Of a stretch of 64,000 nucleotides of DNA, positions 34,903 through 59,472 are shown in pieces. Below the pieces are notes generated by a model. That model was not told the origin of the DNA. It did no database searches and worked only from the letters and a program-made list of their open reading frames with translations. A program made the translations under genes and the position numbers. This DNA is from Mytilus galloprovincialis (lineage: Eukaryota > Mollusca > Bivalvia > Mytilida > Mytilidae): contig NC_134849.1 of assembly GCF_965363235.1 (NCBI RefSeq), forward strand, positions 18,378,863-18,442,862, read 5' to 3'. Positions within the stretch are counted from its first letter, which is position 1; each line of letters begins with the position of its first letter.

Positions 34903-35076
34903 CACTGTGCGGGACAAATTTGCCATTCCGGTATCGGCAAATCTGACTTTGTCGGTTTACAAGATATCAAAAAAAAATTTTGTCCAGTGATAGATTATTG
35001 AAAAATTAAAAAAATGCCATATGTCCCAACTTGTCACTGTTGTCACTCTTGTCACTGCAGCTGATTAAAAGTACAT

Positions 35077-35469
35077 TTCCCATGGGAAATTTGATAATTC
35101 CCATGGGAATATTAGAATTTCCCATGGGAACATTGAAAGTTCCCATGGGAAAAAATACTTTTCCCATGGGAAGTTTAGAGTTCCCATAGGAACTTTAAAG
35201 TTCCCATGGGAACATAAGTCAATTGTTTGTTCCCATGGGAAGTTCTAAATTTCCCAAGGGAACTTTTCTTCCCAAGGGAACTCCTTTTCTTCCCATGGGA
35301 AAATACTTTTCCCATGGGAACAATATTTTTTCCCATGGGAACGATATTTTTTCCCATGGGAACAATAATTTTTCCCATGGGAACAATAATTTTTCCCTTG
35401 GGAACAATAATTTTTCCCTTGGGAACAATATGTTTTCCCATGGGAACAATAATTGTTCACATGGGAAGT
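35077..35469. repeat. Left array of TTCCCATGGGAA palindromes, 19 copies, 21-bp period
   Basis: CCCATGGG cores, or one-base variants such as CCCAAGGG, CCCTTGGG and CCCATAGG, start at 35,079, 35,100, 35,121, 35,142, 35,163, 35,183, 35,203, 35,232, 35,253, 35,271, 35,292, 35,311, 35,332, 35,353, 35,374, 35,395, 35,416, 35,437 and 35,458. Most steps are exactly 21 bp. Three copies of a TTGTCACT word at 9-bp spacing precede the array at about 35,030-35,056. Open frames here (35,175-35,493, both strands) arise because 21 is a multiple of three. Confidence 0.95.
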
Positions 35470-35659
35470 GATATAACTAAAAAGAAAACATAAAAAAAAT
35501 CCTCTAATTGCATGAGTGAAGCAATTTCACAAAACGGACTAAGTTATTATGGGTACAAGTATTTCTTTGAATCTTAATTGTAGAAATATATAATTGTGTG
35601 TTCTACGATTTTTGTCTTGGCATGCTTAATTGAAAGTAAATCACTACGTGTCAAAAAAC

Positions 35660-35856
35660 TACTATAAATTCAGAAATTATTGCTGTTTTTATTATTGTGA
35701 AAATAGTGACAGGGTTATAATCACAATAATATACACTTGCATATTGAAATTTTTTATGAACTAAACAGGATTATTCTAAATTTTCGAACAAAAAAATGAT
35801 GAAATTGAGAAAAATCGCACTTACAATTGCTAGCAATAATTTCTGAATTTTCAGTA
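35660..35856. mobile_element. Small inverted-repeat element inside the left arm
   Basis: Left end TACTATAAATTCAGAAATTA; right end, on the opposite strand, TACTGAAAATTCAGAAATTA; both continue TTGCT. The same family is at 38,678-38,900. It is absent from the right arm. Confidence 0.7.
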
Positions 35857-36224
35857 TATAGTTTTGCATATATAGCTTTCACACCATTGCACACAGTGTC
35901 TTATGTTTATCCATTTGAATGTTTTTGTGTTTTTTTCATGCAGACATTTAAATGTTGATAGGTCTTGCTCATTTTTGACGGCTGTTCAGTCACTGGCTGA
36001 AAATACCTTTATCTCTGGTTTTTAGTTGTCTCATTGGCAATCACATACCATATCCTTACTTAATTTCAACACTTCTTAATTTAAGTTATATACATTTGAG
36101 AATATCATTTTCAAAAAGACAAAACATTACAATTGGTATAACAAATAAGGCACTTGTGTTTTAATATTTCATCTTTCACTGAGATAACACCATCAAGTAA
36201 AATGTGTAAAACAAAAACAGAAAA

Positions 36225-36690
36225 TTAAACAAACAGCAATAAAATAACTCAAGCAAGTGTCAATAAACCTGCACAAATAACATGAATAACATATCTAAGG
36301 TCATAAGCAAGTGACAATAAAACATACAGCAATAATATATCTAAGGTCATAAGCATAAACATGCAGCAATATAATACATTGTATATCTAAGGTCATAAGC
36401 AAAAGACAATCAACATACAGCAATAGTATATCTAAGGTCATAAGCATAAACATGCAGCAATAATATATCTAAGGTCATAAGCAAGTGACAATCAACATAC
36501 AGCAATAATGTATCTAAGGTCATAAGCATTTAAAAAAAAACATGCAGCAATAATATATCTAAGGTCATAAGCAAGTGAAAATCAACATGCAGCAATAATG
36601 TATCTAAGGTCAAAAGTATAAACATGCAGCAATAATATATCTAATTTCATAAGCATAAACATACAGCAATAATATATCTAAGGTTCTCTG
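36225..36690 (+). repeat. Tandem repeat of ~36-45 bp units
   Basis: The word ATCTAAGGTCATAAGCA recurs about nine times, alternating with ACATACAGCAATAATAT or ACATGCAGCAATAATAT. Unit length varies with an optional AGTGACAATCA insert. It is present only in the left arm, so it arose after or aside from arm duplication. Confidence 0.9.
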
Positions 36691-36749
36691 ATATTTGTCC
36701 TAAAAATGTTTGGCTCTAGCACCACTGTTGAAAAAGTAATGCCCCTTTT

Positions 36750-36990
36750 TTCAACAATTTCCTCAGAGGAAAAAGAGTTTTCCTCAAGGGAAAAAGATTT
36801 CCCTTAGGGAATTTGCTGCATAATTATTTCCTTTGAGGAAATTCTTTTTCTTTTGAGGAAATTTGCCGCTTCAAATTTTCCTTTGAGGAAATTTTCTCTA
36901 AGGAAATCATTGTTCTTCAAATTTCCTCTAAGGAAATTTCTGAACATCAAATTTCCCTTAAGGAAATGTTTTTCCTCTATAAAAATTTCA
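36750..36990. repeat. Left inner palindrome cluster (TTTCCnnnnGGAAA type)
   Basis: Repeated dyads such as TTTCCTCTAAGGAAA, TTTCCCTTAAGGAAA and TTTCCTTTGAGGAAA occur about every 25-35 bp. The mirror cluster is 58,390-58,590, with AACAATTTCCTC and AAAAAGGGGC-type flanks shared. Confidence 0.85.
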
Positions 36991-38677
36991 TAACAGTACA
37001 AACATTGACAAACAGTATAAATATATTTTCTCCTAGACTGAATTATTGATCATGTTGATACAAAAGATTATATAAAATAAACACTTTTCATGTCAAATTA
37101 ACTTGTCTTCTGTTTCAGCTGCTGTGTATAATTATTCTACCCCTTACATAACAGTTCAGTGCATAAATAATTCCATTCACAAGACATCTTCCTTCAATTG
37201 GTTGAATAAATTTTGGCAACTTGTTCTTCAAACATCTTCTCTGTATATTTGATATGGAGAGCCATGTACATAATATTATGTACATAAATGGATAACGCAT
37301 GTGTTTATTTCGACAACAAACATGACAAAGACACTATTTTTTTTCTTAATTTCTCCATAATCCATCAGTGAATATGTAGGTTGTTACATTTTACACCATT
37401 GTGTCCTTGTGCATCTTTGATAGTACTCCATTTTGTTTATAGCAATTTTGTAGAATTTTTTCTATTTCTTTTTCCAGAAAAACACACAATTGAGTTCATT
37501 TCACATTAATTAATCCAATTAGCACATTATGTAGAAAAGTATTAACAAATAAGTTTCCTCTTCAGTATAGACTTGCAGGACCTGACGATGATCATAAAAA
37601 CCAAGATATCTGACCTATAAATACACAAAATAAAAATAAAAAGTTATAAACATGATAAATGGAGAAAAAAACAGCAATATAAATAGGCTTATTTTATCAT
37701 GTTTTAATTAAAGTCATAAGAAACCTCAAATTAAAAAAAAATATGTATAATAATTATGTTTTTTTACTTATTTTTAATTGCTTGCTTCCAGGAAGCAATT
37801 CGCCGATACATATTTTCCATATACATAGTGACCCGAGCGTAACCCTCCTCGTAAAAATCCGGTGACCACAATATGCAAGGATCTGTCATTGAAATAAACA
37901 AATAGCTGATTATACATGTTAAACACGTGCTCAATACCCATGCTTTTTGTGATTTGTTTACTATAAGGTGGCAATCGGTAAAACTCAGCTTCAAAACACG
38001 GCATTTAATGAGCAGCATTATTTGTTAAATCAGAACAAACAGAGAGAAAAAAAAATTGACGATTTATATGATATACTTGTGAAAATAATGATAAAATCGT
38101 GCACAGAGGACTAAGTTTATGATGTATACATGCATTGGTTCAAAAGTTGTACAAACTTTATTTTTCATCACTCACTTGTTTCATATGACTTTAACATTTG
38201 AGAAACTTTCATTTGATATTCTTACTTGTCATGCTTTATATGAGTTCTCTTATTTCAGTGCTTTGTGTCCAAGATTTAATATTCGTTGTTTAGTGCCTTG
38301 CAGTGATATTTAAAGTTTAGCCACTTGCAAAAGTTGTTATAGAATGTTCATATGCTGTGTTATTTGAACCACTGTCCTATATTATGGTCAGGTAAGAGGT
38401 TGAGTGCTCACAGACATGATATTTTTTTATTAATTGTTATTGTTTTTGAACATGTTGAACTAAATTGGATTGTTTAAATCTTTTCATGTTGGGATCTTTA
38501 TTGGCTGACCTATAAAGGAAGTGTTGTCTCATTATTGAAGGCCAGCCCATCATTGGCCTTTAATTTCTTGCATCCACTTCTTTGAACTCTGGTGGATAAG
38601 TCACTCATTTACCATACCACATCTTCTTATTTTTATAAGAGTCATCATTCAAAGGCAATTACTTTTATCATGTTTGT

Positions 38678-38900
38678 TACTGTAATTCAGAAATTATCCA
38701 GAGGTTTTTAGTAATGCGATTAATGTGACTGGGTGAGTATCGCAAAAATAAGAAATCATATTTTGATAACAGAAACATATATATATCATGTATATACATG
38801 ATATATAATTGATGCAGATTTTTTTGTAATCACAATAAGTTGTCCATTCCCTGAAAAATCACAATAATAAAGGCAAGCAATAATTTCTGAATTTACAGTA
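38678..38900. mobile_element. Small inverted-repeat element, second copy of the 35,660 family
   Basis: The left end TACTGTAATTCAGAAATTAT and the right end (GCAATAATTTCTGAATTTAC before AGTA) are inverted repeats. No coding content; a short ATATATGATATA-type dyad lies inside. Confidence 0.65.
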
Positions 38901-39379
38901 TATAGAAGTGGTCTTACCATTTAGGCCTTGTTGTATTCTGTTTATCTTGTTTTGTCGCTCATTTCTATTGAAACTGTTTATATTTTTCATTATTTTTCTA
39001 TATTTCTTGTCCTATAAAACATAAAAAGGGTAAAAACTATTATTAAACATCAGTATTTTCTTTATATACAATAATATTTAATAAGAATGGAATATTTGTG
39101 CTATTTCATTTCACAAACTTTTTGTCAGTCATGACTTTCAAAGACTTTCACCCTGGTCAATAGTTTAAAAAACAAACATTCCCATACTTTTTCTTGGTGT
39201 TCGTACTAATTTTTCATTGGACAACAAAAACATGATTCAACTATTCTTCTATGATTTGTTTTGCTTGACTACCTTAAACTCTGAAATATTGTTTACACTG
39301 TATAATCTGTATGTGTCTCACTCGTCAAAATTTCAAATTAATATATAAATAACCAATAAGAATGCTATGCATGGCTCAG

Positions 39380-39880
39380 CTTGATACAAACGTACACTTT
39401 AAACCCTGAACAGTTGGAGCAAGTATGGACACAACATTCAATTCAAACTTTTCTCCATTGGTTAGAGGTATAGGGGGAGGGGGAGATCTCACAAACATGT
39501 TTAACCCCGCCGCATTTTGCGCCTGGCCCAAGTTAGGAGCCTCTGGCCTTTGTAAGTCTTGTTTTATTTTAATTTTAGTTTCTTGTGTACACTTTGGAAA
39601 TTAGTATGGCGTTCATTATCACTGAATTAGTATATATTTGTTTAGGGGCCAGCTGAAGGACGCTTCCGGGTGCGGGAATTTCTTGCTACATTGAAGACCT
39701 GTTGGTGACCTTCTGCTGTTGTTTTTTTATTTGGTCGGATTGTTGTCTCTTTGACAAATTCCCCATTTCCATTCTCAATTTTATGAATACAACTCTGAAT
39801 TGTAAATTTGGATTGTGATTCAATAGTTGATGCAGCATAGGTTTCTGACATTGAATGAATGTGGTCCAAGTATTTAAAAA
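39380..39880 (+). repeat. Dispersed mussel-type repeat
   Basis: It contains AAACCCTGAACAGTTGGAGC, CCCCGCCGCATTTTGCGCCT, GGAGCCTCTGGCCTTTG, GACGCTTCCGGGTGCGGGAA and GAAGACCTGTTGGTGACC in order. I recall this chain as common in mussel genomic and UTR sequences. The minus-strand ORF at 39,642-39,869 is read from the repeat and is not a gene. Confidence 0.6.
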
Positions 39881-40560
39881 TTTTAAATTGACAATTAACC
39901 TCTAAAATGGTCCAATATTCAAAATCTTAATACATGGTTAGATGCAGCATATCAACATGATCAAAGAACCCAAATAATTCATTATTTGATGAAATCAAAT
40001 AAAGTTCAATTTTGGACCCTTTATATCTCAATGTGGACCAATTTCAAATGAATTTGTTAACGGGCCAAAATATCAAAAATCTAAATGAATGGTTAGATTC
40101 AGCATATCAAAGAACCCCATATATTCAATTTTTTGGAAATCAAACAAAGTAAAATATTGGACCCCAATTTGGACCAACTTGAAATTTGGGCCCATACTAA
40201 AAATCTAAGTAAATATTCAGATTCAGCATATTAACATGATTAAAGAACACCAAGAATTTAAATATTATTAAAATCAAAATAAGTTTAATTTAGGACCCTT
40301 TGAACCTTAAGATAGACCAATTTAAACAGGACCAAAAAACTAGGAAGCTTAATGCACAGTTAGATTTGGAATATATATATCAAAGAACCCCAATAATTCA
40401 ATTTTCTATAAAATCAAACAAAGTTTAATATTGGCCCCTTTTGGCCCCTAATTCATGTAATTTCTAAACTCTGGACAAAAACTCTGGTCACAAACCCTGT
40501 GTTTGAGTTTCATAGATTTCTGTTAACTTATACTAAAAGTAATTATGCGAAAACCAAGTG
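39880..40560 (-). repeat. Reverse copy of the 665-1,905 repeat family
   Basis: The plus strand reads GCATATCAAAGAACCCCA repeatedly (about 39,950, 40,103, 40,230, 40,378) and ends with AACCCTGTGTTTGAGTTTCA and GCGAAAACCAAG. These are reverse complements of the TGGGGTTCTTTGATATGC and GGTTTATGACC units at the window's start. Confidence 0.75.
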
Positions 40561-40569
40561 TCTTCGGAC

Positions 40570-40735
40570 TACGACGACTACATGATAAAATTAAGAATGG
40601 GAATGGGGAATGTGTCAAAGACCCCCCTTTTTTGGACTATCAATGCATTTGAATGGGGACATGTAATTACCCCCCCCCCCCCTTTTTGTCCTGGGTTAGG
40701 AAACCCTTTTTGAAATGACTGGATCCGCCCCTGAA
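40570..40735 (+). repeat. Dispersed repeat with a C run
   Basis: GGGGAATGTGTCAAAGACC, GAATGGGGACATGTAATTA, a run of about 14 C, and TTAGGAAACCC. The same words appear in reverse order and orientation at 53,418-53,545 (with a G run), so they are two copies of one family. Confidence 0.65.
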
Positions 40736-40938
40736 GGGTCTATCATTAAGTTTGACAACTTCAGACATACTACTTTACCAAAAAAATTGACACATTTCAT
40801 CCAATTTAATTCATTCTTTACTTGCTATTTCATCCATAATATTTTAAAGAAAGAAATTTGGAAGGAGTATGATTTTAATTTGCAAGTTATACACTATCCA
40901 AACTAGAGACCTAATAGAGTAGATATATACTAGACTAA

Positions 40939-41984
40939 GGGAGCTACCATTTGATTTTTATGGGGGGGGGGGGGGGGGGGGCTAGGATGAAAAATTTTAT
41001 CCTGCATTTTTTTTTAGCTGTAATCTCTGTCCTGCCTTTTTATTTTTCACTCTGTTCGTTCCTGCCTTTTTTTTTTTTTTAGTTTATCCTGACTTTTTTT
41101 ACCTAAATTGTCGTCCTGACTTTTTTGCTAGTGTCTCATCCTGCCTTTTTTTTTCTCAAACAGTCAGGGGACTTACTTAAATGAGTGATTTTCTAAATCA
41201 CTGATTTAAGTAACATTATTTCCATAAAGGTTGGAAGTTAGAGTTGTCTTTCTTTAATAATCACCTATTTAAGTAGTACAAATTAATCACTAGAAGAAGT
41301 GATTTAATTTTATTGTAGCTTTAAATATAGAATACTAATGATCCAGGGACTAATTATGTTTCTAAACTTATCAGAACCAACATCTGTGTTGTCTAGGATG
41401 ACCAGGTCATTTCAGGTGATGACCTTGTACTGAATCTAGGATAATGACATAAAAATCACTTGTTTAAGTATCAGACCTCAATTTCCTTCCCAAAAATCAC
41501 TTCTTTAAGTATCATTCTTTTAATTATCCCTACTAATTTCAACACCCCCGAACAGTGAGATTTTTATCGCAACAGTAGAATTTTATTACATAATCTGAAA
41601 GATGAAACCTTGAACTTCACAGGAAAAATCTTTGAAGAAAGTATCAGTTCATTATGTAAAGCCATTATTATAGCATTTTTTCAACTAAAATAGAATTTTC
41701 AGCTAAATGATAGCATCAAAGGCAGAAACCTTTCTACTTAAAAGAAGCAAAAAGTTTATTTTTTTTTAATTTTACTAATTAAAAGATATTATTTAAACCA
41801 GATGTGTTTAAAATTTGGAAAAAAATACAAAATTTCAATTTGTGACAAAACCACAATTTTGCTACTCGAATAAGTGATTTAAAAATCACCTATTTCAGTA
41901 AGTCCCCTGACTGTCAAAACTCCTGTTCTGCCTATTTTTTTCAAATTTCATCCTAGATCCCCATAAAAATCAAATGGTAGCTCC
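40939..41984. mobile_element. Inverted-repeat element (outer of a nested pair)
   Basis: The left end GGGAGCTACCATTTGATTTT with TATGGGG matches the inverse of the right end (CCCCATAAAAATCAAATGGT, AGCTCC). Both continue to CTAGGATGAAA. Flanks CTAA and TTAA suggest a 4-bp TTAA-like target. Inside are repeated TCCTGCCTTTTT words and a run of about 20 G after the left end. It is split by the element at 41,161. Confidence 0.8.
41161..41913. mobile_element. 753-bp inverted-repeat element nested in the previous one
   Basis: The ends are CAGTCAGGGGACTTACT on both strands. Inverted homology continues through AGTGATTT/AAATCACT words. The flanks TCAAA at 41,156-41,160 and 41,914-41,918 are a perfect 5-bp duplication. 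It contains many AAATCAC(T/C)TRTTTAAGTA variants throughout. No ORF. Confidence 0.85.
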
Positions 41985-42050
41985 TTAATTTAAATCAAAC
42001 TTGGGGTGACTGGCGACAAAGATTTAAGGAAATAGATGACAGTTTACCTA

Positions 42051-43017
42051 GCCCCACAGGACGCAATTACGACTGGACACAATTACGAACGATTTCCAAT
42101 GTTTGCCCTCTGAGATCATATTTATTTATTTTTATCAATAAACGTTTTTATAAATAAAAACCCTATTAAAATTCCCTTGTTTTCATGATAATATAATTTA
42201 TGTGCCATTGGTGAATGTTGATGACGATGACAAAATCATTCTGAAAATATTATAAGAACGGCAATCTGGCCTGCAAGTTATATAAAAAAAAACATAAAGG
42301 TAAGTGCACATTGCCTTCTATTGTTAATATATAGAAAGAAAAATATCTCCTGATTCTGTTCATGTGCGTGATGCCTTTTATCTTGCCCAAATAACCCCAC
42401 AATTGACGTTTTTTAGACTCTTGTGACCCTATTTATGGTCAAAAGAAAATATGTTAATTTTATTGAAAAGTCCAGAGAACTCCAAAAAAAATGTTGACCT
42501 GTATAAAAAAAAATCATAGATGAATGATAAGTATAACACTGAAATGGATAAACTTGAATTTAGTGCTCCTTTAAAGGAGGAACTTACACAAAAACAAAAA
42601 AAAATCAGAAATCTTTCCTTTCCACATGACCGACATTTCGTCTGCAACCATTGCTAAAGTAATTGAAGGAAAAAACAAACTTGTGCATCTTATTTTCCTA
42701 TGAAAATGTGTTTGAGATAAAGATTAATGTATGCTTTATCAATCTAGACTGTTGTCATTGATTTCTTCTGCAAGATATTTCAATATAGTGCTGTTGGGAA
42801 TTGCGTCCATATGTGGCTCTCTTGACCCGTAAAACGAGGTCACGCAAATCTTACTAAAGTATCCTAACGTGAATAAAAATTTATGTGGGATATGATGCAA
42901 AATAGAAAGCCTTCATACATCTTAAATTCTATGGTATAAACAATTCAAGAAAAGTAGTCTACTTAAAAAAATATTAACCACAGTTCAAAAATCGTTCGTA
43001 ATTGTGTCCGGTGAGGC
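42051..43017. mobile_element. 967-bp inverted-repeat element with TA target
   Basis: Left end GCCCCACAGGACGCAATTAC; right end, opposite strand, GCCTCACCGGACACAATTAC, followed by GAACGATTT on both. TA flanks both sides (42,049-42,050 and 43,018-43,019). The left end has GGACRCAATTACGA twice in a row. The ORF at 42,429-42,647 is AT-rich noise. A mariner-type origin is possible from the TA target. Confidence 0.85.
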
Positions 43018-43019
43018 TA

Positions 43020-45760
43020 CAATGATCTAGCTTCATGGCAATGGCATACATTACAGACTACATCATGTACATGGTCATTCTTAATTGTGTTTAAACTTTG
43101 GGAGTTCATTTTTTTAATGTTTAAAGCTAACAATTTCAACTACATACATTTATCAAGATTTGATTCTACATTTATATATAATTGTGTATGTCACATGTAT
43201 GTACATGATGTATTTTAATGTAAAGCATCTGAAAACTCATTAGCCGTTTTCATAGCCTATGCCTGAAAACAGAGATTTCTTATTAAGGAGAAAGCCCCGC
43301 CCCCCCTTTTTGGTGTGAAATATTTTGTTGATTATATAGGGAATCACTGAAGCATGACTGGAGCAAGCATCCCCCTCTGCCCCCCCCCCCCCCCCCAAAA
43401 AAATAATTAAAAAAATGGAAATTTCTGGATCTGCCCATGTCAACCTTTCACTCAGGTCATTGGTGAAGAGTTGTCACACAAAATAAATGATATCAAATGT
43501 TCATATGTATATGTTTTAGCTCGTGTAGGTGTAAGGAGGCAACCATTTGATTTGTTGGGCGAAAAGGGTGAATAATCTTGCCTTGTAAAACTTGTGCTAT
43601 AAATAAAAATTAATACATTTCCATTTAAAAATCCGTCAGCCCAATCTCATCCAGTGAAATAGATTATTATCTGTTTTCGAAATTATATGGAAGTACTTAG
43701 TAGTTCAGACGCATTGCAAGGCATTTTTTCTAAGGAGACGTGTAGACTCATTTAATTGGGGGAATGGAACCAATAAATTGATAGGATCCGATATGATCTT
43801 CCCAGTAAGGAGCACCTATTTTTTTAGGTAATTATTATTAGTGTCGGTGATCACACAAGTAAATCAGAGAAAATATTGCATGCAAGTTAATAAGCAGAGA
43901 AGAGACAATTATCAACTTGTGTATTATTCATTTTCTCGCAGTTATTTGCGGTAAATTAACTATATGTATATATATCCCAAAACAGGTGTTCGGTTCTAGT
44001 ACTATACAATTTAGTAAAACTGCTATATTTTGGGGCCGAAAAGGGGTCTTACTGAACCTACTCCTTTATAAATCTTAAGTAGGAATGCGTGGGTTCCATT
44101 TCATGAGACCTACACGGATTTTTTATAAAATAAATTTAAAAATTATAAATACAGTTTTCATCAATTCTTTCCCGGCTTAGATAAAAAAAAATATGAAAAT
44201 AAATAATCTTTTGAAAATAATACGATATGGTTTAATTATTTCACTTCATTATAATGATAAATCCTTTAGATCTGAAATGTTTAATTAAAACGAATTTATC
44301 ATTTTGATCTACCGATAAGAAACCACCGATAAACTTTAAATTGAAGTGACATGGTCAGTTAAGTAACCTGATTAGTTGCATGGCTGATTACCATCTTACA
44401 GGTGACCCAGTAATTTTCCATATGACACTAGCGTGTACCCTCGGGGTGTGTATAACTTTTTTTGGGGGGAACATCCTGTCCACGTGTAATACTTAGCATA
44501 TATTGCAACATTTGACATTAAACAAATTTTCTTTGTAGCATCGGAGGCAATTTCATGTTCAACCACACAGCAAATTTCACACAAAAAATATGATAAAATC
44601 ATAAGAAAAAGAATAAGAAATACTAACAAATAAATTTGGCATTAATAAAACGGGGATTCGTGTATTCAAGAGCTTATTTTCAGTGGACAACAACAAATGG
44701 AAGTTTTTAACGACCTTGACTGGCTATAATATATATATAGCACTTGCACGGTCGTTCCAGTGGACATATTTCATACCAGATTACTTATTCTTTTTATATA
44801 TATGACAATTATTGTTTAATCTGATACACGTACCTATAATGTACAGTATTTTGAACAGCTTCAAATATATGGGGTCCGTAGTAATACCGCAAAGGACCTC
44901 CTTAGTGCACTAAGAACAAAAATGTGCACTAAGGACCTGATGGAATGATACAACTGTTACAAAGGACATGGCATATAAAAATAGACTTTGTAAAAATTCA
45001 TTATTTTAAATTTTACAATTATACCTTTTTTAATTAGAAAGTTATCTAATGTGTATTCGACACGTGCCTAAAAAAATTGATTGTCACCTTTTTAGTGTAA
45101 TAGGTAGAAATTCACGTTCGCTCAACCTTGACCCGTTTATAATCTGCTAGTAAACTGTTTAAACATGTATATATGGTATTTCAAATTGTTCTTTATTTTT
45201 TTCCCATTTGTTTGTTTCTGCCGTATTTATTCTGTCTGTTATAATTTTTACTTCTAAAGTAATAAAGTATTTTCAACTCTTTTCAGTTTGGGAATTTTTA
45301 ATCCTTTTAATTTTAAAAAGACAAATAATTGTGAACACTTCACGGAAAAGTGAGGATTTATATTTGGTTGCTTAACGTCCAGTTGCCAATACTTCAATCA
45401 TTTTTCTGATGTCAGGGACCATGCCTCACAGCAAGGTTTTATAAGGATAGAACATAGGCAAATGCAAATAGATTCTATTGTCTATATCTTTGCTGCTTTG
45501 GTCTCTGTATGTATAATGATTCATTATGTTTTATGGGATACTTAACTTCTGTTCTACAAATTTTATATTAAAATATATTCTGATTTTTCATTTTTAATGA
45601 GATTTTAGTTTCTGTTGATTAGAGGCAGTACAAAAAACATGTTTTAATCATAATTAAGGTGAACCCCCCCCCCCCCCTTTCAACATGACACCCAACCACA
45701 CCGCTTGAAAATCTTAAAATATTTTTTAATGTTATCATTACTATATATATATATATTGAA
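43020..45760. other. Anonymous interior of the giant element
   Basis: No recognisable gene. It holds C-run repeats at 43,300-43,398 and 45,665-45,680, and AT-rich stretches. The ORFs at 43,240-43,443 and 44,396-44,629 carry no domain. GTGCACTAAG words form a small dyad at 44,903-44,936. Confidence 0.45.
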
Positions 45761-45772
45761 TAGGGTGACACG

Positions 45773-46475
45773 TTGTCGCTACATAATAACCAGATAAAAT
45801 GGATCTTGTTTATACAAAAAATCTTTCAAGATTGTGGTTTCTCAAACATATGGGAGTCACAAAATTTTGTTAATAAAGAATGGTTAAAAACTGTCATAAA
45901 GCAGAGATTGCTATATCAATATATTCAGAACTGGAATTCCCTCATTCAAAATTCGTCAAAAGGTATAAACTACAAAAATTAAAAAAAAAAACACTTGAAA
46001 TTGAAGAATATTTTAATATTTTGGACTTCAAAGACGCTTTTGTTTTTTGTCGATTTCAAACGACTAATACTAAGTTGCCGATTGAAACAGGAAGATGGCA
46101 AAACGTAATCAGAGAAAACCGCTTTTGCAGTCTATGTAACAATCGACAAATAGGTGACGAATATCATTTTATATTTGAATGCAAATTTTTTCAATCAAAA
46201 ACGAAAAGAGTTTTTAACTGCATATTTTACAAAACGGCAAAATACAGTTAAATTCTCTGAAGTTATGTCAAGTACAAGAAAACCAGTTCTGAAGAAGCTT
46301 TGTTTTTTTTTATAGAAAATATAAATACTTGTGTTTGTCGGCCCGTGCTTGTACTCCTGGCTTGTAACTTTTGTAACCTCTCTCGCTTGTTTTGTACATA
46401 TTGTAAATATTTATTGTTGTATTTGTTATCTCTGTACCGATGTAATGCATTTGCTTTATGAGAATAAAGATATAT
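45773..46475 (+). pseudogene. 3' fragment of a second LINE family (C-terminal zinc-finger domain)
   Basis: Two overlapping frames (45,773-45,982 and 45,880-46,251) form one broken reading frame. The shift is near the poly-A run at about 45,980. The product has LPIETGRWQNV, then RFCSLCNNRQIGDEYHFIFE ending in C, the C-C-H-C motif found at the C-terminus of many LINE ORF2 proteins. A 3'UTR with AATAAA at about 46,463 follows. A related fragment on the other strand is at 53,545-53,993. Only the 3' end is present, as usual for 5'-truncated insertions. Confidence 0.75.
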
Positions 46476-49900: not shown

Positions 49901-50428
49901 ATTCCTTGGTTTAACAAGATCAACACCTTCAATATAATCGGAATTTGATCCTACACGAGAGTTAAAATCTCCACAAATAAATATTTTCCCTTTGTGTTGA
50001 TAAGAATATATCTGATGTAATAGATTTCGAAAAAATACGTCCGAGTCCACAGGTCTACATGAATCTGCTGGTGGCAAATAACATATTGCAACACAAAAGC
50101 ATAGTTTTTCTAGTTTAGCAGAGAACTCCAACCATAATACTCCCTCTTCCTCCTCATCTAAAACATGTATATCAAACATATCCGCTATATTGTTTTTCAC
50201 AAATGCACCTACTCCTGCTGAGCCGCGAGTGGCACGTTTATGCAATGTTTTCCTATTATTTCCATAAAATCTAAAACCATGAACGTGTAGGCGTTCATTT
50301 CCACGTAAAAATGTTTCACAAATTCCAATAATATCACAGTTAATATAGTTTAAAACTTTTTCCCGGAAAATTGAATTTTCGTTCGATTTAGTAGACCATC
50401 CCCTGCAGTTCCATACCCCAAGCCGCAC
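46943..50428 (-). CDS. LINE ORF2 protein: AP endonuclease, reverse transcriptase, CCHC tail
   Basis: 1,161 residues if counted from a GTG at 50,428. Endonuclease (about 1-235): LGVWNCRGW, GICETFL, ICGDFNSRVG near residue 150, and SIPDHSVL. Reverse transcriptase (about 500-810): ATGIDDIPAEV, FVDMKKAFDT near 655, GVKQGCILSPTLFSLYINDL, and LLYADDIAL near 757 with the catalytic Asp pair. C-terminus: CVLC ... H-FLTEC near 1,080-1,095, a CCHC motif. It nicks target DNA and primes reverse transcription there. All catalytic motifs are present and unbroken. There is no in-frame ATG at the start: the frame runs back through GCA and GAT to the ORF1 TAG. The ATG that overlaps GGATGCAG is in another frame. 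Synthesis must therefore use readthrough, reinitiation or a non-AUG start. Confidence 0.92.
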   Translation of the reverse strand: MRLGVWNCRGWSTKSNENSIFREKVLNYINCDIIGICETFLRGNERLHVHGFRFYGNNRKTLHKRATRGSAGVGAFVKNNIADMFDIHVLDEEEEGVLWLEFSAKLEKLCFCVAICYLPPADSCRPVDSDVFFRNLLHQIYSYQHKGKIFICGDFNSRVGSNSDYIEGVDLVKPRNYIDHTENHHGDVFINFLSDVNFGMLNGRFNDNQFTCISTTGKSVVDYICVPYEDMENIEDFKIVPMSDIINNISYIPDSIPDHSVLYCDVNLSINLKRNMDMNKSENNASHKHNVSSVPNDFLLNEDIFHKVLEAIQKIENYIEVSSDVQNAYDEFQSLIKCEMDNKLPIYNSSSGNKRKKSRFKPYWNDSLAGQWSKVCETEKKWLRYTGPTSLKQKYKKEYCSERKTFDRLIRKFKRKYQANERHILENKLCETNQRDFWKSIGKLGIANERKPCIPMAIVDENGSVNTNRNDVMNKWKTDFHSLFKRKTGVETELDSANFNIEIDVTTLNASISRTEVLDAVIRAKSRKATGIDDIPAEVLKNDTAIDLLHQIIMGCFNLGKVPIQWKSGIINPIFKHGSDDNRNPLNYRGITLISVPCKIYCNILNYRLSKWLEDNKILCDEQNGFRRGRSCEEHIHSLYSIINDRKISRKSTFTCFVDMKKAFDTVEHSFLWYKLQRAGVRGKFLFAIQSLYDDVNCTVRVNNDLTQWCNVEAGVKQGCILSPTLFSLYINDLADRINALNCGVKVDDFHLSILLYADDIALIAPDENSLQRMLDVVSDWCATWKLSININKTKIVHFRNQSIARSDRIFNCSGNNIDYCESYKYLGVWMDEYLTFKKHVTELSKAASRALGALMTKTSMLGGMTYKVYTKLYTSMVEPVLLYGSGIWGTKAFSAISTIQNRACKFFLSVGKRTSNLASRGDMGWTSCFTKQRINFCRLLCRLLRSDQHRNCTKILKWTSRYRKGWAFQVHKTVDLLNVRDLVYDLSVSTKTVMRTISEKITVLDNTEWNEEVFNDRHNSQNGNKLRTYRQYKQSVKTEQYVRLNIFKTERRTMALFRSGSLPLACETGRYSRPPTPIEDRICVLCETNSIETEKHFLTECSLYDDLRYNLFNECSKLIENFQDFNTNRKFIEIMNCTNIQYYFCKCLHKFYLRRKLFLQ

Positions 50429-50434
50429 TGCATC

Positions 50435-51409
50435 CTATGTGCGCTTGGCTAAGAGTCGACTTCCTGCAAATTTATAGTCTTTGTCTTTTCCCATTTCTTT
50501 CAAAACGGTCCTCATCGCATTTTGGAAGTTCCTCGTTTCCAACGGCATATCATTTTCTATATACACTTTCTCAAATTGTCTACTGCTTTTAAGTTTCGAT
50601 TTATTTTTCATGACTTCCTTTTTGTTTTCCATGTTGCTCGTTTCGACTACCACTATACCAGGGTAAGCCCCCCTACTTTCTTTTCTCTGTACACTTTTTA
50701 TATCAACATTGGCTAAACCCAGTCCATCTCGCAACATACCTTTAACTTTATGTTTTGTCAATTCATCTTCGGTTAGCTCTCGCTCGTCAAACGACAAATT
50801 CTTGATTATGAATCGGTTTCTGGTATTACTTTGGCGTGAACTGTTAGTATCTTTATCTGATACCTTTTTTTCTAGACTGTTTATTTGACTTTTCATAACA
50901 TCAAGTTCATTCTTTACCTCAGTTTTTACTTCATCTATCTTTTCCTTCAACTTGTTGTCTATCATTGTTGAAATTCTTTCGGACACTTTTACTGATATTT
51001 TTTCCTCCATGTTAGTTTCGAGGTCATCAATTCTTTTTTCTAAGCTTTTACTCATAGATGTAAAATTTGCCGACAATTGAAGAATTAAAGATTCAAGTCT
51101 ATTGTGGGAATTTTCGCTATCAATCGCCGAGGGTGCACTCGAGTAGTTCAAATCACATCTACTTTTCTTGTTTATATTGTCTGATTCGATGTAGTGTTCA
51201 GCCATCTGATCTGATTGACGTTTTCTTTCGCTAGGTGAAGCAATGTTATAATTAAAAGTACTTACAGGCACATGTCCATTACTCGTCATCAAGTTGTTGA
51301 CATACTGACCGGCGCCATTTGTACACAAACGATAATTAGAAAATTCATCCATCGTGTAATATATCCAGTTATTTTGCAAATTAAAATTCCCAGTGGATTG
51401 TATGTCCAA
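50435..51409 (-). CDS. LINE ORF1 protein (coiled coil plus RRM-like domain)
   Basis: 324 residues. The N-terminal ~95 residues are polar and disordered. Residues about 100-190 form a coiled coil with heptads (SLEKRIDDLETNMEEKI, then KNELDVMKSQINSLEKKV). Residues about 197-270 read RNRFIIKNLSFDERELTEDE and PGIVVVETSNMENKKEVM, which resemble the RRM of L1-type ORF1 proteins, followed by a basic C-terminal part (VYIENDMPLETRNF). It is expected to be an RNA-binding chaperone that trimerises through the coiled coil and forms the element RNP. The ATG at 51,409 is the first in frame. It ends at TAG (50,437-50,435), and the next codons lead in frame into ORF2. Confidence 0.85.
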   Translation of the reverse strand: MDIQSTGNFNLQNNWIYYTMDEFSNYRLCTNGAGQYVNNLMTSNGHVPVSTFNYNIASPSERKRQSDQMAEHYIESDNINKKSRCDLNYSSAPSAIDSENSHNRLESLILQLSANFTSMSKSLEKRIDDLETNMEEKISVKVSERISTMIDNKLKEKIDEVKTEVKNELDVMKSQINSLEKKVSDKDTNSSRQSNTRNRFIIKNLSFDERELTEDELTKHKVKGMLRDGLGLANVDIKSVQRKESRGAYPGIVVVETSNMENKKEVMKNKSKLKSSRQFEKVYIENDMPLETRNFQNAMRTVLKEMGKDKDYKFAGSRLLAKRT

Positions 51410-51500
51410 TAAGCACTGTATAAAGTTACTTGTTAACTAAAATTTGAGTCTATAAAATCAGTAAATACATAAAAAATCACTTTTAAGATCACAGAGAAAA

Positions 51501-53417
51501 TACGACTGTCCACTATCACTAGTCACGTGATCATCTATCCTAATACATATACTGTAATTCAAATATAATTTAAGGGAACCGTCGCCTATCCTTTAACTTC
51601 CCCTTCCTATTCGTTCCAAATGCGGTGATATTTAAACTAGAACCTATAAAGTTTTTAATTCGTCGAAACTGAACATTTCGCATATTTTCGGAAAATCATA
51701 CATATCTTTATTAGCCTCATTTAGGGTGATACAGCAATTGCAAAACGGGTAGATACGATCTGTAATCAAATAATTAAACTAATCAAAAGTTTATTTAGAG
51801 TAACCATATGCCGGATGAACAAAAAGTTTGCCATTTATTGAAAAACATATGGTTTTATATAACAAGAAAACTTCTCTAGTATTCTAAACATTTATCACGT
51901 ACCCCCTCCCCCAAACCTCCGCTTCAAGCTCTAGATTCGCGCCTGCACATTGTGAATTATATTTCTTACATCACGATGCTTATTACATTATAAAATAAAA
52001 TGGTATTCATCTTCAATTGTTGAAATAAAGATGAATTGTTATAAAAAAAGCATTGACATCAGTTTTAAAGTTATTGTTCATAGGAGACAGTTATGATTTA
52101 TAGTCTCTTTTTAAAACGTAATATAATTTTACCTCTTGGAGTTTTTCTACATTACTTCTGTAATCGGATTTTGAAGAACCCCACGGACACCACATACTCT
52201 CATGCATATGTCACTCATTCAAGGTATAATGATAATATATGTAAACTCTTGTGTTGTTAACAAGGAAACGAAATCTCAAAAGCATTTTTGTCTCAATTTG
52301 TATCTCAAAATAGGGTTCTTTAATTTTAAAAAAAGCTTGCATAGCAATTTCCTTAAAAACAAAATATAACAAAGGCAAAGTTTTAAAACACAAAATTCAT
52401 TTTTTTTTAATTTTTCTTTCATAAACTTGAAAATTTACCACGCTAAACCGTTAAGTTTATTCAACAACAACCATTAATTAATCAATAAGTAACGATAAAA
52501 AGACAATTGTGTATTGGATTAGGTTGATTGAACATGATGATTATTGAATTTGCAATAAGCCGTTGGTCACGTGCCGAGTGGCACGCGTTGATTAAAAAGT
52601 CATTTAACTTCAAAATTACAATATCTATTGATACCTAACTTTACAGATATGAGGTATTTAATCATATCCTCCTATATATCCATATTCTCTGTGATCTTAA
52701 AACATCGTTTTAGTGTCCTTAATGCAAAAACTTTCTTCTCAGTCAGCGCCTTTAAGAATTCCTTTGCGGTATTTCTACACACCGAAATATATGGCCTTAT
52801 TGGTAAAATACCCACGTGAAAATACCACAGTGTTAGTGTCACTAATAGTCAAAATATTGTGCCGTGAAAACTGGAAATGAAGTTTAGCGGGACATAGGAA
52901 ATTACAAAAATATTAGAATTGTTTACTTACATAGTGTAAGCGGGATGCAGGAATCTAAAAAAATAAATAGTAACTATAAAGCGAGATCCGTGAACAGAAC
53001 CCCCAAATGAGACCCCATTAGTTGTGGCTTATTTTTGGTCTTTTTAGCTAGTTTCCTTCCCCTACATTACTTGTAAGTTGATCGTTTTTGTAAAGCAGCA
53101 CTCGAGGTTTGACAGTATATTACCAAGAAATCCACAAAATATTGAAAAAGAAGGTTTAGAAAATTTAAATAATGGTATGCACACACACTCCCCTGTCAGC
53201 ACAGACAATTATATTTTTGTAAACGCGCCAAACTCATTTCTTCCACAGTGAGACAAGCTTTACAATGTTGATGGTGGTGAAAATCTAGTCCAAATAATTA
53301 TTACGTCTTGCAAGGCTATTTTATTTCTGGAACGCTTTCCTCTGACGAAGCCGAAATGTGAAACCAAATCAACAAGAAGTCTAACATCTATAATAGAACT
53401 GAATATAAAATCGAAAT
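51501..53417. other. Anonymous interior of the giant element
   Basis: No gene seen. The ORFs at 52,211-52,393 and 52,628-52,819 are AT-rich with no domain. It contains a TCACGTGCCGAGTGGCACGCG dyad-like stretch near 52,567 and ordinary AT-rich DNA. Confidence 0.45.
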
Positions 53418-53545
53418 GTAAATGGGGAATGTATCAAAAGACCAAAGAGCATTCAATGCAACGATAAAATCCCATAACCCGAGAAGGGGTTCCTAACCAA
53501 AGACAAATGGGGGGGGGGGGGGTCCAACTACATGTCCCCATTCAA
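53418..53545 (-). repeat. Dispersed repeat with a G run (reverse copy of 40,570 family)
   Basis: It contains AATGGGGAATGTATCAAA, GGTTCCTAACC, a run of about 12 G, and ACATGTCCCCATTC, mirroring 40,570-40,735. The LINE fragment at 53,545 begins at its edge. Confidence 0.6.
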
Positions 53546-54000
53546 TACAATACAATACAATATGCTTTATTTGAAAAACACTCCGTCACATTGACATGTG
53601 AAACAAGAGGTAAATTACAAAATACAATCACATACAATTAAAAAATAATAAAACAACTTAGAAATAAAATATATGGAAAATTACTTTATATTATAATATT
53701 TTAACATTATAATATTTTAGTTAACTTTGAAATGAATATAGACACATTTTTAAATAATAAGTTAATATTTGTCAATGACGGTTAGTCCTTTCATTTTTGC
53801 TTAATTCTGATATTTCACATAGTACTCTGGAATATGCTGATTTCTGATATTTTTTAACTAATAAAGAATTGCATTCAAATAAATAATGGAATTCATTGCC
53901 TGAATTGCAGTTAAACACAGTTTGCATGTCCTTCTTCTTTTGGAATGACTTATACCATCTTCCCAGCTCTACTGGGATTTTACATTGCAGCATCTTAATT
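53545..54000 (-). pseudogene. 5'-truncated LINE fragment with (AATAC)n tail
   Basis: The minus strand encodes LQCKIPVELGRWYKSF, then a segment ending GNEFHYLFEC (ORF 53,993-53,772). This aligns with the C-terminal domain of the fragment at 45,880-46,251 (KLPIETGRWQNV, GDEYHFIFEC). The first CxxC pair is not clear here. A 3'UTR follows and ends in an ATACA/AATAC tandem at 53,546-53,565. The piece is dead. Confidence 0.7.
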
Positions 54001-54489
54001 TTGAAATATATTTACGTTTGAATGGTGTTAATTTTAAAATTCAAATGCATTGATCGTCCAATAAAGAACAATGTAGAAAGGGGGGTTCCAACATGTCCAA
54101 CCCTCAGACCCTCCTGGATCCCTGCCTGTGAGGCATGCTTTAGCTTGCCATTAATGTATACTAGTTGAGTGATAATGGACGTCATATTAAACTCTTTGAT
54201 ATTAAAAAAGAAACTAAAATAAAAATCATACAAAGGTCACAAAGGCCATAATCTGGCTCCTGACGTGGGAAAAGTGCAAAATGCAGTGGGGATGAAAGCC
54301 TTTACTGTAAATTCCTGAAATTACAATTATATAAATCATCTCACATCTTTGCGCATTTCTTGAAATTGGTCATATTAATAAATGCATGTAATATTTTCAG
54401 AAAATTTCAATATATAGGCTTTTTAAAAAAAGTCAATCTTGTGCATGATTTATCAATGATTATACTTGCACAATTAACGCATGTTGTTC

Positions 54490-56690
54490 TCAAAACTAAG
54501 AGGTGTCTATGCTATTTATGACAATTTTCATGGTTCAGTGGTTATAGTTAAGTTTTTGTGTTTTGGTCTGTTTTTCTCATACTTTATGCAATAAGTCTAC
54601 TATATTTGTTGTATGAAATGATTGTAAGGTGAACATGTCTAGTGGGATGATGTCATCTGACCTTGACCTCATTTTCATGGTTCAGTGGTCAAAATTAAGT
54701 TTTTGAGTTTTGGTCTTTATCTATTAAATACTATAAGCCATAGGTCAACTGTATTTGGTGTATAGAAATATTTTATGATCTATATGTCAGTGGCACAGGT
54801 TTTATTTGACCTTGATCTCATTTTCACGGTTCATTGATCAGTGTTTTTGTGATTTGGTCTATTTTTCTTAAACTATAAGTAATAGGTCAACTATAATTGT
54901 TGCATTGAAGCCTTGTTAGCTGTATATGTCTGCCTGGCATGGTTCATCTGACATTGAGGCTTAAATTAAAATATTATTTGTTTGCCCTTTACCGACCGAC
55001 TCTATAAATTCGTTCCGACTGAAAATCTTTTATTTGTATTTACCAGCAATATTTTGTTTTAATTATTTTTTGTTCCTCCCGAAAATCTTATATTTGTATT
55101 TCCTGCTCAAAACTTTTTTACCGGAATCCACAGGTTTTATCTTCCCCGTATAAGGTTAAGTCCATTTGGTATCACGTCAGCGTTTGGCATGAACACTTGC
55201 ATTTAGAGATTCAAAGCTTTTGATTGAAGTCGATGTTGAAAGTATAACCAACGTTGCCCTTTATACTTGAAGAGCAGGGTTCATTCAAAAAAGTGTGTCC
55301 AATACAAAATTATCAACGTGTGTACAAAATATTTTGTTAACGGATGTTGTATCCTATATAACATGTATAAGGATGACGTTTAGTGATTCGTATATCCGGA
55401 TGATTATGTTATTGCTGCCTATTACCAGCTTTGACATTTTATTTATATCTGAAATGAACCGAAGTCCTGTAAATTGGAGAATAATTGGCAGTAAAATCGC
55501 CAAGTTTTCCTTGCAGACCATTTATAAATGCGATGTAAAATATGTGACATTTGAGTTTCAAGTCTTTTAGCTTTTTTTTTATAACACCCGGACACACTCA
55601 GTCTCTAGGGTTGTAAATAAAGTAAGATAAATGCTTAGTTTTAGCTTTTTTAACTGGTTGCATGATGACGATGGTGGGAAATGCACTGCTGGGCAGTGGC
55701 TTTATATTCTAGTCAAATATTTTTTTTTTATTTCACAGATATCATCTCTGATAATTTCAGTTCAAATTTTGATAAAATTGGTAGAATGTCGGAATGACAC
55801 ATACTATAGATAGGGGTTGGAGGGTCCGGATCCTGAAATCCCGGGCTTTAAAACATGAAATCCTGAGCTCCCGAATTTAAATAAATTTAAATTCTGCATC
55901 CCAAAAATTAAAAAAAAAAACAATTCCTGGAAATCCTGAAATCCTGAGCTTAAAAACACCCAATCCCGAAGTCCCGATAAAGGTCCTACCCCCTAATAGA
56001 TTGCACATAGTAAAGCTGTTTCACAAACCATGCTAGGGAGATATATATGATATTAATAAATCTTTCGGTCAGGTTAAGCGTACAAGGTACATGTACGTAG
56101 TACAGAATATCAGTGCAAGTTAAAACTCTTTAAAAGTTCCAGGCATATAATTGTTGAAAATATGCTCGAGCCCTATATTTTGATATTTAAAAACAAATAG
56201 AAGTGCATATAAATTAACTTCACATTATACATGATAATTTTTTTTCATAACTTCCTGGGACTATTCAGAAACTTTAATAAAAGTAAAGATTAGTAAAATC
56301 GATCATTCTTAAAACAAGAGCAAATACAGACAAAAATGATATCATTCAGATATTGTATCTATAAAATAAAATATTATACCTACCTGCCTACCCATGACAA
56401 AAAATGTACCGAGCCAAGTTATTTTATGGGAAAGAAAAATAAAATATTTTACCTACCTACCTACCTTGTTTCAAAAAATAGGGTCGGAAAAGGGCAAACA
56501 AACAATATTTTAATTTAGGCCTGACCTCATTCTCATGGTTCATTAGTCTTTATTTATTTATCTTGGTTAATGTTAAGTTTATGTGACAGTTGTGATAAAG
56601 CTTTATACTTAGGACTATCAACATATTATCAATGATTAGTAAAAGAAGGCGAGACATTTCAGCATGTGCACTCTTCTTATTAAACACACA
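54490..56690 (+). repeat. Second copy of the TGACCTTGACCTCATTTTC repeat, split by an insertion
   Basis: It matches 12,130-12,593 in order: CATGGTTCAGTGGT, TTTTGTGTTTTGGTCTGTTT, TGACCTTGACCTCATTTTCA, GCCTGGCATGGTTCATCTGA, and then, beyond the insertion at 54,958-56,521, GACCTCATTCTCATGG up to AAGAAGGCGAGACATTTCAG. The GTCGAGCC hairpin 5' end is missing. Confidence 0.8.
54958..56521. mobile_element. 1.56-kb Harbinger-like inverted-repeat element with TGA target duplication
   Basis: Tips are GGCTTAAATTAAAATATT on the left and GGCCTAAATTAAAATATT on the opposite strand, both continuing with TTTGTTTGCCCTTT and CCGAC. The flanks are TGA at 54,955-54,957 and 56,522-56,524. The uninterrupted copy of the host repeat near 12,434 reads CATCTGACCTTGACCTCATT, so the empty site is visible in the same window. 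A 3-bp TNA duplication and GG tips fit the PIF/Harbinger superfamily. No transposase; the longest ORFs (55,295-55,570; 56,336-56,518) have no domain. Confidence 0.9.
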
Positions 56691-58389
56691 TTAATATACA
56701 TCATGTACATTAAACAGCAAAAAAAAATATTGATCTAAGATGCCATTCAATAATAACTTTTACTCTTTTATGTATAGGACAAGAACTATAGAAGATACAG
56801 AGAAATTATAAACAGCAGAAATGATAGGCAATTTAAAATTTGCAGAAGCAAACTAAACCTAAATGGTAAGGCCACTTTTATTTATTTTTTTAAAGTTGTT
56901 GAACTTGAAAGATGATAATCATGATTACTATAAAAATTAAAAGATGTGGTATATTAAATATGAAAACTATCATGGCTTTAAGAAAGCAATTGTAGGCCTG
57001 TGACGACCTTCAATAATGAGAAAATCCATACCCTATAGTCAAAGTAGGCAGCTATAAAAGACCCAAAGATGAAAAATTGAAACAATCCAACATGTCCAAA
57101 CTGTAAAACTAATTGCCTAGTTTATCATGTTTATTACAAAATAAATTACAAAAAATAAATATAACCGGTATGAAACAACAACAACAACAACCACTAAATG
57201 TTAGTGTCAGACTAAACTTACAAAAACTACAGGCTCTGAACTTTGGACAGGCACAATAGGAATATGGCAACCTATGATGTAAATTTCCTGCAAACACAGA
57301 CTGGACTAATGTAAATCAACTAATTTTTCGCGACTACTTTATTTTGCGTTTTATACTTTCTAGTCTACATCACAGCTAATTATTTTTCGCAAGGTTCAAG
57401 TTTATACTTAATGAATTTTAATAAAGAAAGCTACATATGAAAAACATTTATTGCTGTTTCTCTCTCCATTTATAACATTTTATTTGTTTATTTTGTGTAT
57501 TTATAGGTGATCAGACATCTTGGTTTTCACGATCAATAGGTCATTACTGAAGAGGAAACTTAAAGTTGAAATTTATTTACAAAGTGCATAATTGGATTAA
57601 TTTGAACTGGAATGTGTGCTTTCCTGCAAAAAAGAAACAGGAAATTTCATCATTATCACATGTTAATGCCAATAAACAAAATGGAGTTCTATCATAGATA
57701 CACAAAAACACTATTGCATAAAAGCAACAACATATTATATATATTATTCGAAAGAAAGGAGAATGCAGAACAAATACTATTTTGTTGTTGAAAAAAGGAA
57801 CACCAGTTTTATCCACTCATTTACATCGCTCCCTCATATCAAATATACAGAAGAAGATCATTGAAGAACAATTTGCAAAAATGTTTTCTCTTAGAATTGA
57901 AGGAAAATGTTAAGTGAATGGAATAATGTATTCACTGAATTCTTACGTAGTGGATTGAACACTGTACACAAGCTGAAACAGAAGAAAATTTTAATTTAAA
58001 ATAACACGAAAAGTGTATAATTTATTATTTAATCTGCAAATATATAAAAAAAATTCTTTAGAACACCACAAATGGTATGACATTCAAATTGGTTGCTTAT
58101 TAATGTATTGCATTGAAACAATTACATGAATTACAAAGAAAACAGAATCATTTGCTACAAATTTTTGTTATAAATCATAGTTAAATTTTATAAAAAGTAT
58201 GAACAATACCTAGATCTAAACAGTCAGACTTTATCAATTTTCAATGTCATTAAAATGTTGAGTCAAACATTTATGAAAGTTTTGAATATCATTTGCATCA
58301 ACTATACAGTCTTGTAATAATTATATTCATACTGTTTGTATACATGGTATAGCGAAGAAATGTTTAACAAGAACAAATAAGGGAAATTT

Positions 58390-58590
58390 GATGTTCAGAA
58401 ATTTCTTTAGAGGAAATTTGAAGAACAATGATTTCATCAGAGGAAATTTGTTGTCTTGAAGGAAATCTTTTTCCCTTGAAAAAACAATTTCCCTTGAGGA
58501 AAAAACAATTTCCCTTTGAGGAAAAATCTTTTTCCTTTAGGGAAATTTGATTTCCCTTGAGGAAAACAACTATTCCTCTAAGGAAATTGT
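58390..58590. repeat. Right inner palindrome cluster (TTTCCnnnnGGAAA type)
   Basis: AAATTTCTTTAGAGGAAATTT, TTTCCCTTGAGGAAAA (three variants) and TTCCTCTAAGGAAATT. Mirror of 36,750-36,990, but with some units lost or altered. Confidence 0.85.
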
Positions 58591-58938
58591 TGAAAAAAGG
58601 GGCATAACTTTTTCAACAGTGGTGCTAGAGCCAAACAATTTTAGGACAAATATCAGGGAACCAATACCAACCAAGTTATCAACTTCATTTTGACTTAACT
58701 CCAAAAATTAAGGTGAACAACTTTTGCACTCAGCAGAATTGCAAACTTGTCCCGGAGACAAATCTGCTTTTCTGAGATGTTTTACAAGGTTCCCCATCAG
58801 CTTTCCATCCAGCTAAGGCAGAAGTATATTCTCTTTTATTCTCATATATCCAGTATTTGCAACAAATTGTAATTTTTCTGAAGAAAAAAATTCAAATGGA
58901 AAATAATGTTTGTATTGTACATGTTGTAATATAGTATG

Positions 58939-59290
58939 TTCCCATGGGAAGAAAAATTGTTCCTATGTGAAAAAAAATTGTTACCATGGGAAGAAAAATT
59001 GTTCCCATGGGAAGAAGATTTGTTCCCATGGGAAGAAATATTGTTCCCATGGGAAGAAAAATTGTTCCCATGGGAAGAAAATTTGTTCCCATGGGAAGAA
59101 AATTTGTTCCCATGGGAAGAATTAATTCCCATGGGAACTTTTTGTATTCATCTTTTCCCATGGGAACTTTAAAGTTCCTATGGGAACTCTAAACTTCCCA
59201 TGGGAAAAGTAATTTTTCCCATGGGAACTTCCAATGTTCCCATGGGAAATTCTAATATTCCCATGGGAATTATCAAATTTCCCATGGGAA
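58939..59290. repeat. Right array of TTCCCATGGGAA palindromes, 17 copies, 21-bp period
   Basis: Cores start at 58,941, 58,962, 58,983, 59,004, 59,025, 59,046, 59,067, 59,088, 59,109, 59,128, 59,157, 59,177, 59,197, 59,218, 59,239, 59,260 and 59,281. Reading inward from the tip, steps are 21, 21, 21, 21, 20, 20, 29: the same series as on the left. The innermost units are separated by GAAAAATTGTT-like spacers, unlike the AACAATAATTTT spacers of the left. Both arrays begin 176 bp from the tip. ORFs in five frames (58,842-59,496) are by-products of the period. Confidence 0.95.
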
Positions 59291-59472
59291 ATGTACTTTT
59301 AATCAGCTGCAGTGACAAGAGTGACAACAGTGACAAGTTGGGACATGTGGCATTTTTTAAATTTTTCAATAATCTATCACTGGGCAAATTTTTTTTTGGA
59401 TATCTTGTAAACCGACAAAGTCAGATTTGCCGATACCGGAATGGCAAATTTGTCCCGCACAGTGTTAATCAA

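Follow-up and report, generated by a model that had tools for sequence, protein, structure and literature searches.

Structure of the element and its ends

The window examined here is a 64,000-nt stretch of the Mytilus galloprovincialis assembly GCF_965363235.1 (contig NC_134849.1, positions 18,378,863-18,442,862 of the forward strand), and all positions are window coordinates, with position 1 being its first letter. Between 34903 and 59464 lies a candidate foldback transposon spanning 24562 bp, with matching inverted tips, an array of short palindromes at each end, collinear inverted arms, and an interior partly occupied by a retrotransposon and other repeats. A search of the window for the 20-base tip, tolerating at most three mismatches, gave two matches, both exact and facing inward, at 34903-34922 (+) and 59445-59464 (-). 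Against a background of 100 shuffled sequences, with a mean of 0.01 matches and two matches in 0/100, the identical tips described in the initial annotation are borne out; no second tip was found inside the arms in tip searches of the window.

The outermost 66 bp are the same in both ends, and only seven differences separate the left terminal segment (34903-35212, +), comprising the tip and the first seven palindrome sites, from the right one (59155-59464, -), with 303/310 bases identical. A change-point occurs at alignment column 310, with 7 events in the 310 columns before it and 50 in the 251 columns after it, a step matched by 0/1000 permutations. The near-identical terminal part therefore extends to about 310 bp and is not restricted to the outer 175 bp initially annotated as differing at a few bases, the near-identity itself being upheld. 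None of the seven differences falls in the 84 palindrome bases, two fall in the 52 spacer bases, and five in the 174-base tip, numbers too small to prove constraint on the palindromes.

The left flank TCAATCAA (34895-34902, +) and the right flank TTAATCAA (59465-59472, +), the putative target duplication, agree at 7/8 bases, a level reached at a rate of 0.0012 among random 8-mer pairs from the two 2-kb flanks, for this one length and offset. By eye, the direct repeat continues for two bases inside the left tip (AATCAACA, 34897-34904 and 59467-59474), and shifting the tip two bases outward on the same diagonal (AACACTG) yields a perfect 4-bp AATC duplication, the left copy lying at 34897-34900. 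The candidate for the duplication expected of a foldback element is a 7/8 match, or a 4/4 match with the tip moved two bases, and a length of 8 bp is likely; the proposed 8-bp duplication holds as a flank match, not as a perfect repeat. Duplications of 8 bp are also made by hAT elements, which have a YARNG tip and the target nTnnnnAn; the tip CACTG departs from YARNG at base 3, and TTAATCAA fits nTnnnnAn while TCAATCAA does not.

Both ends carry regular arrays of the 12-bp palindrome TTCCCATGGGAA. Within two mismatches, 19 sites occur at the left end (35077-35467, +) and 17 at the right end (58939-59290, -), with steps of exactly 21 bp in 13/18 and 12/16 cases, respectively. The 35 sites of the window that differ from TTCCCATGGGAA at no more than one base all fall inside these two outer arrays. 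Sites 1-8 are equidistant from the tip in both arms, which also have in common the imperfect site TTCCCATAGGAA and a 29-bp step from site 7 to site 8; the 17-base spacer of that step (35213-35229 / 59138-59154) is identical between the arms at 5/17 positions by eye. Past site 7 the spacers are arm-specific: the left arm has three copies of CAATAATTT, and the right arm three of CAATTTTTC and two of CAAATTTTC, a pattern that independent amplification of units in the two arms would produce. A second palindrome set, of the TTCCTCNRAGGAA type, lies near the start of the second arm block on both sides. The palindromes are putative repeated transposase-binding sites, and the 21-bp step would correspond to two helical turns, placing the sites on one face of the DNA.

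Aligned left against right, the two 8.5-kb ends gave 20 inverted matches at E <= 1e-3, comprising seven used blocks, 11 array-against-array matches that were set aside, and two weak matches that were dropped. The seven blocks lie in the same order on both sides and extend inward to 5.8 kb from the left tip and 6.0 kb from the right tip, in agreement with the annotated collinear inverted blocks over several kb, and their ungapped identities from the outer block inward are 91, 83, 83, 76, 79, 77, and 90%. Inside the outer block, left blocks (+) pair with right blocks (-) as follows: 36682-37076, holding the TTCCTCNRAGGAA-type array, with 58270-58662, holding the right-hand second array; 37072-37743 with 57381-58025; 38439-38649 with 56917-57113; 38899-39047 with 56746-56884; 39500-39666 with 54130-54296; and the C-rich block 40649-40708 with 53484-53545. 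This innermost pair is the weakest member of the arm and may be a dispersed repeat. The claim that the tips are more alike than the interior is likewise supported, with 7 differences in 310 bp against about 75-83% identity in five of the six inner blocks. Between 37000-40800 and 53400-58300, five inverted and no direct matches were obtained at E <= 1e-6. Across 120 pairs of 4-kb window tiles, inverted matches occurred in 11 and direct matches in 16 at the same threshold, several of them arising from the element itself, and because tile matches are this common, the short inner blocks are trusted mainly for their order. By our own arithmetic, which treats 1.2 kb without a match in the left arm as inserted, the net arm length is roughly 3.5-4 kb.

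Later insertions make up much of the 24.6 kb, as the initial annotation had stated for part of the length, and include a LINE (long interspersed element), dispersed repeats, and nested elements with inverted ends. The LINE, a non-LTR (long terminal repeat) retrotransposon identified by Pfam and open frames, has 4494 bp of open frames at 46943-51436 (-). The frames 50435-51436 and 46943-50434 share one reading frame with a single TAG between them, which is either a nonsense change or part of a design relying on read-through or reinitiation. Its endonuclease and reverse transcriptase domains sit in a 1163-aa open frame, for which reason the LINE is taken as younger than the arms; a search for its target duplication found only shared words of 10-11 bp. 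In the left arm, a tandem array at 36220-36684 (units of 45, 82, or 172 bp reported), for which no right-arm counterpart was found, is probably a later insertion or expansion, and a 760-bp dispersed repeat at 39822-40581 has an inverted relative within 728-2710. Farther in, a 1045-bp nested element with inverted ends GGAGCTACCATTTGATTTTTATGGGG (40940-41984) holds, by eye, another inverted-repeat insert. In the right arm, a 2155-bp dispersed repeat (54524-56678; relative at 12011-12595) is split by a 1.57-kb element at 54957-56522, which has inverted ends of about 41 bp (54957-54997 and 56482-56522) starting GGCTTAAATT and, by eye, TGA on both sides; we take this element to be Harbinger-like. 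The order of events in the right arm is accordingly the arm, the dispersed repeat, and the 1.57-kb element inside that repeat.

Pfam was run on frames read through with X at stops, covering both strands of 35500-46800 and 51500-58700 and the minus strand alone of 46001-52000. The six frames of the first two intervals gave no family at E <= 1, and the three minus frames of the third gave no transposase; the same read-through mode recovered the reverse transcriptase of the LINE (RVT_1) at 2.5e-40. Specifically, no MULE (Mutator-like element), P/THAP, or KDZ transposase domain was found in this copy, so that for Pfam and these frames the annotated lack of a recognisable transposase stands. Additionally, the window gave 0 matches to Rfam at gathering scores and 0 tRNAs.

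A probable single foldback unit and its alternatives

The element has the long inverted ends with internal tandem repeats that characterise foldback-type members of the terminal inverted repeat (TIR) order. We consider it probable that it is an ageing, non-autonomous transposon of the foldback type, a cut-and-paste DNA element (class II, TIR order) that was moved in trans by the transposase of a relative. The exact tips, the duplication-like flank, and the collinear arms all support the initial view of one unit with sharp matching ends.

Several observations weigh against this reading. Only one copy is known, so mobility can only be surmised from its sequence, and the flank match carries one mismatch and has the 4-bp alternative. 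Two weak arm matches break the common order (left-arm 4615-4684 with right-arm 2209-2281, E 6e-5; 4843-4905 with 6023-6079, E 4e-4). Direct matches connect the array-holding 4-kb tiles 32001/56001 and 36001/56001, and are taken, at tile level, to reflect the palindrome arrays. In block 2, identity reaches 92% across the outer 100 columns, indicating that the interior has not decayed uniformly. Between the outer array and block 2, the left arm has about 1230 bp and the right arm about 250 bp in which no mutual similarity was found, which means that divergence from a single duplicated sequence does not by itself account for the arms. Finally, Pfam gives no reverse transcriptase or recombinase for the Ngaro-like frames of the window, alone or read through in one frame, showing that divergent or fragmentary coding sequence could be missed.

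The alternative that survives best, although we regard it as unlikely, is that two members of one multi-kb family inserted separately in opposite orientation, about 12 kb apart, with the outer match reflecting membership of the same family and the flank match arising by chance. Dispersed families do recur in the window, and the divergence of the inner blocks is of a degree that old, independent copies could have reached. Each arm should then own a second end, yet with one mismatch allowed the first 11 tip bases recur just once more, at 41557 on the minus strand, and about one such match is expected by chance by our own estimate. In favour of this reading, the right-flank sequence TTAATCAA turns up again at 52478, some 1 kb inward of the last right-arm block. 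Nothing tip-like stands beside it, however, and since the plus strand of the window has four occurrences of TTAATCAA and three of TCAATCAA, a single near miss is no surprise. Moreover, TCAATCAA shows no recurrence near 40.7 kb, and the outer flanks agree at 7/8 bases.

A decayed autonomous element, whose own transposase gene has become unrecognisable or has been removed or displaced, is a slightly less likely variant that is compatible with a single foldback transposon. Much of 40.7-46.9 kb and 51.5-53.5 kb carries no assignment, and Pfam misses strongly decayed genes; against this stand the absence of any family at E <= 1 in the scanned frames and a longest stop-to-stop frame (at least 100 aa, within the element but outside the LINE frames and arrays) of 124 aa with a sub-threshold zf-RVT match. 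Least probable is a local inverted duplication or palindrome of host sequence involving no transposon. Such an event would provide long collinear arms less alike inside than at their ends, but on either side the homology ends at CACTG, or two bases ahead of it, next to a duplication-like flank. Nor would it explain the terminal arrays, or why the outer 310 bp are 98% identical when five of the six inner blocks are at about 75-83%.

Relation to known foldback elements

The literature search, with most subscription journals outside its coverage, found no description of this element. The exact tip and a pair of spaced palindromes each gave 0 matches in viral and in bacterial/archaeal contig collections, zeros that say little given the contents of those collections.

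The initial annotation held that multi-kb arms do not fit the well-known DNA transposon superfamilies as usually described, a claim that is not supported in view of MULE foldbacks, which combine 8-9-bp duplications with subterminal repeat arrays (PMC5225508), and of Galileo (P superfamily), whose D. willistoni copy 112 carries arms of 4246 and 4680 bp (PMC4168063). Galileo resembles the mussel element in its long, internally repetitive arms, long-arm copies lacking a transposase, ends that are the most conserved part, other transposable elements within the arms, and duplications of 7 or 8 bp (PMC4168063). It differs in having repeats of about 140-210 bp, compared with 12-bp palindromes at 21 bp here, and a target consensus of GTATTAC. 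Galileo is further characterised by a conserved terminal sequence of about 40 bp and a P transposase with a THAP domain; no P or THAP domain was found in the scanned frames of the present copy.

MULEs are defined by a target duplication of 8-11 bp and long inverted ends (PMC6446971, PMC5225508), and here the long inverted ends are present and an 8-bp duplication is likely, at a 7/8 match. Muta1 and other MULE foldbacks of Aedes aegypti have been placed with Phantom (PMC6446971). Muta1 shares duplications of 8-9 bp, nine 12-bp subterminal repeats in its 145-bp inverted ends, and non-autonomous copies with varied interiors (PMC5225508), whereas its spacers are 3-4 bp, compared with 9 here, its length is 3198 bp, and its arms are 145 bp. 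Tm1, a Mutator/Foldback element of root-knot nematodes, has composite ends with variable counts of a motif of about 14 bp, duplications mostly of 8-10 bp, and nested insertions (PMC3169594), but carries asymmetric 7-bp terminal motifs outside the inverted repeat, while both ends here start alike.

Further likenesses come from Tetris of D. virilis, described as a non-autonomous foldback without conserved open reading frames, with 8-10-bp duplications and tandem repeats in its arms (PMC4079207); its repeats are, in contrast, about 220 bp, and several Tetris copies are known. Among KDZ elements, 8-bp duplications are reported for Zisupton and a Dileera element, and CA..TG ends for Kyakuja (PMC12730594), but no KDZ domain was found in the scanned frames of this copy, and Kyakuja is described without inverted repeats and with 7-bp duplications. 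KolobokP, a composite-looking DNA transposon found in bivalves among others and reported from Mytilus species (PMC9587614), has long terminal repeats that are direct and duplications of 3-5 bp for solo repeats; it was rejected as a candidate, the long repeats here being inverted and the inner arms giving no direct match at E <= 1e-6.

An 8-bp duplication is compatible with MULE (PMC5225508), P (PMC4168063), and KDZ (PMC12730594) elements. The element is an additional example of a known structural kind, the foldback, with precedents published in Galileo, Muta1, and Tm1, and no outsider to known kinds; its superfamily is left unassigned. Repbase groups non-autonomous elements by duplication length and first 11 bases (PMC4455052). 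With foldback elements already known from flies, mosquitoes, and worms, it is a good rather than a revolutionary example.

Possible mechanism, significance, and neighbouring features

The observed ends, arrays, and arms, together with the lack of a recognised transposase in the scanned frames, fit one most likely mechanism, in which mobility, supply in trans, binding, and conversion of the tips are inferred steps. A DDE transposase supplied in trans by a relative would bind the palindrome arrays at both ends and pair them, cut at CACTG, and insert the unit with an 8-bp stagger, with the 12-bp palindromes, about two helical turns apart, acting as repeated dimer-binding sites that raise end recognition. 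The repeats of Galileo, which contain transposase-binding sites, offer a precedent for binding arrays (PMC3688188). The arms may once have been better-matched inverted repeats. Since then their inner parts would have decayed and gained insertions of other elements, with the terminal 310 bp staying alike either through gene conversion from arm to arm or because a copy moves only when both of its ends are good. Past column 310, each arm may have amplified its own array units, which would explain the sharp identity step. The imperfect palindrome common to both arms and the nearly equal spacers favour copying between arms over base-by-base selection, although sequence common to a whole family would look alike. 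A bolder and rather doubtful proposal is that the element represents an undescribed lineage, in which two tiers of helically phased palindromes (TTCCCATGGGAA outer, TTCCTCNRAGGAA inner) would serve as cooperative binding arrays through which a transposase acting in trans moves units with multi-kb arms whole.

As a single decayed copy, the element is mainly a descriptive record. Should other copies confirm it, the family would be unusual among foldbacks for the length of its arms and the regularity of its palindrome array. It could then help to address two questions: whether convergent evolution has produced long arms and multiple binding sites in different superfamilies, and whether ends of this kind cause chromosomal inversions, for which Galileo in flies is a reported case (PMC2775673, PMC10990002).

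Other features of the window lie on both sides of the element. Two long open frames at 8924-10678 and 28879-30675 (-) have B-box and NHL-type matches (TRIM-like) and show 71% DNA identity. Split direct repeats occupy 12985-19326, with 12985-13177 matching 18818-19010 at 99.5% and 18593-18820 matching 19098-19326 at 97.4%, a region presumed to be an Ngaro-like tyrosine-recombinase retrotransposon. These repeats enclose the frames, resembling reverse transcriptase and recombinase by eye, that have no Pfam match, and a GDSL/SGNH-like frame at 17505-18053 scores 4.1e-07 (31.1 bits), just below the Pfam cut-off of 32.9. Just outside the element, a 51-bp tandem array at 61702-62727 contains 20 copies with 88% matches.

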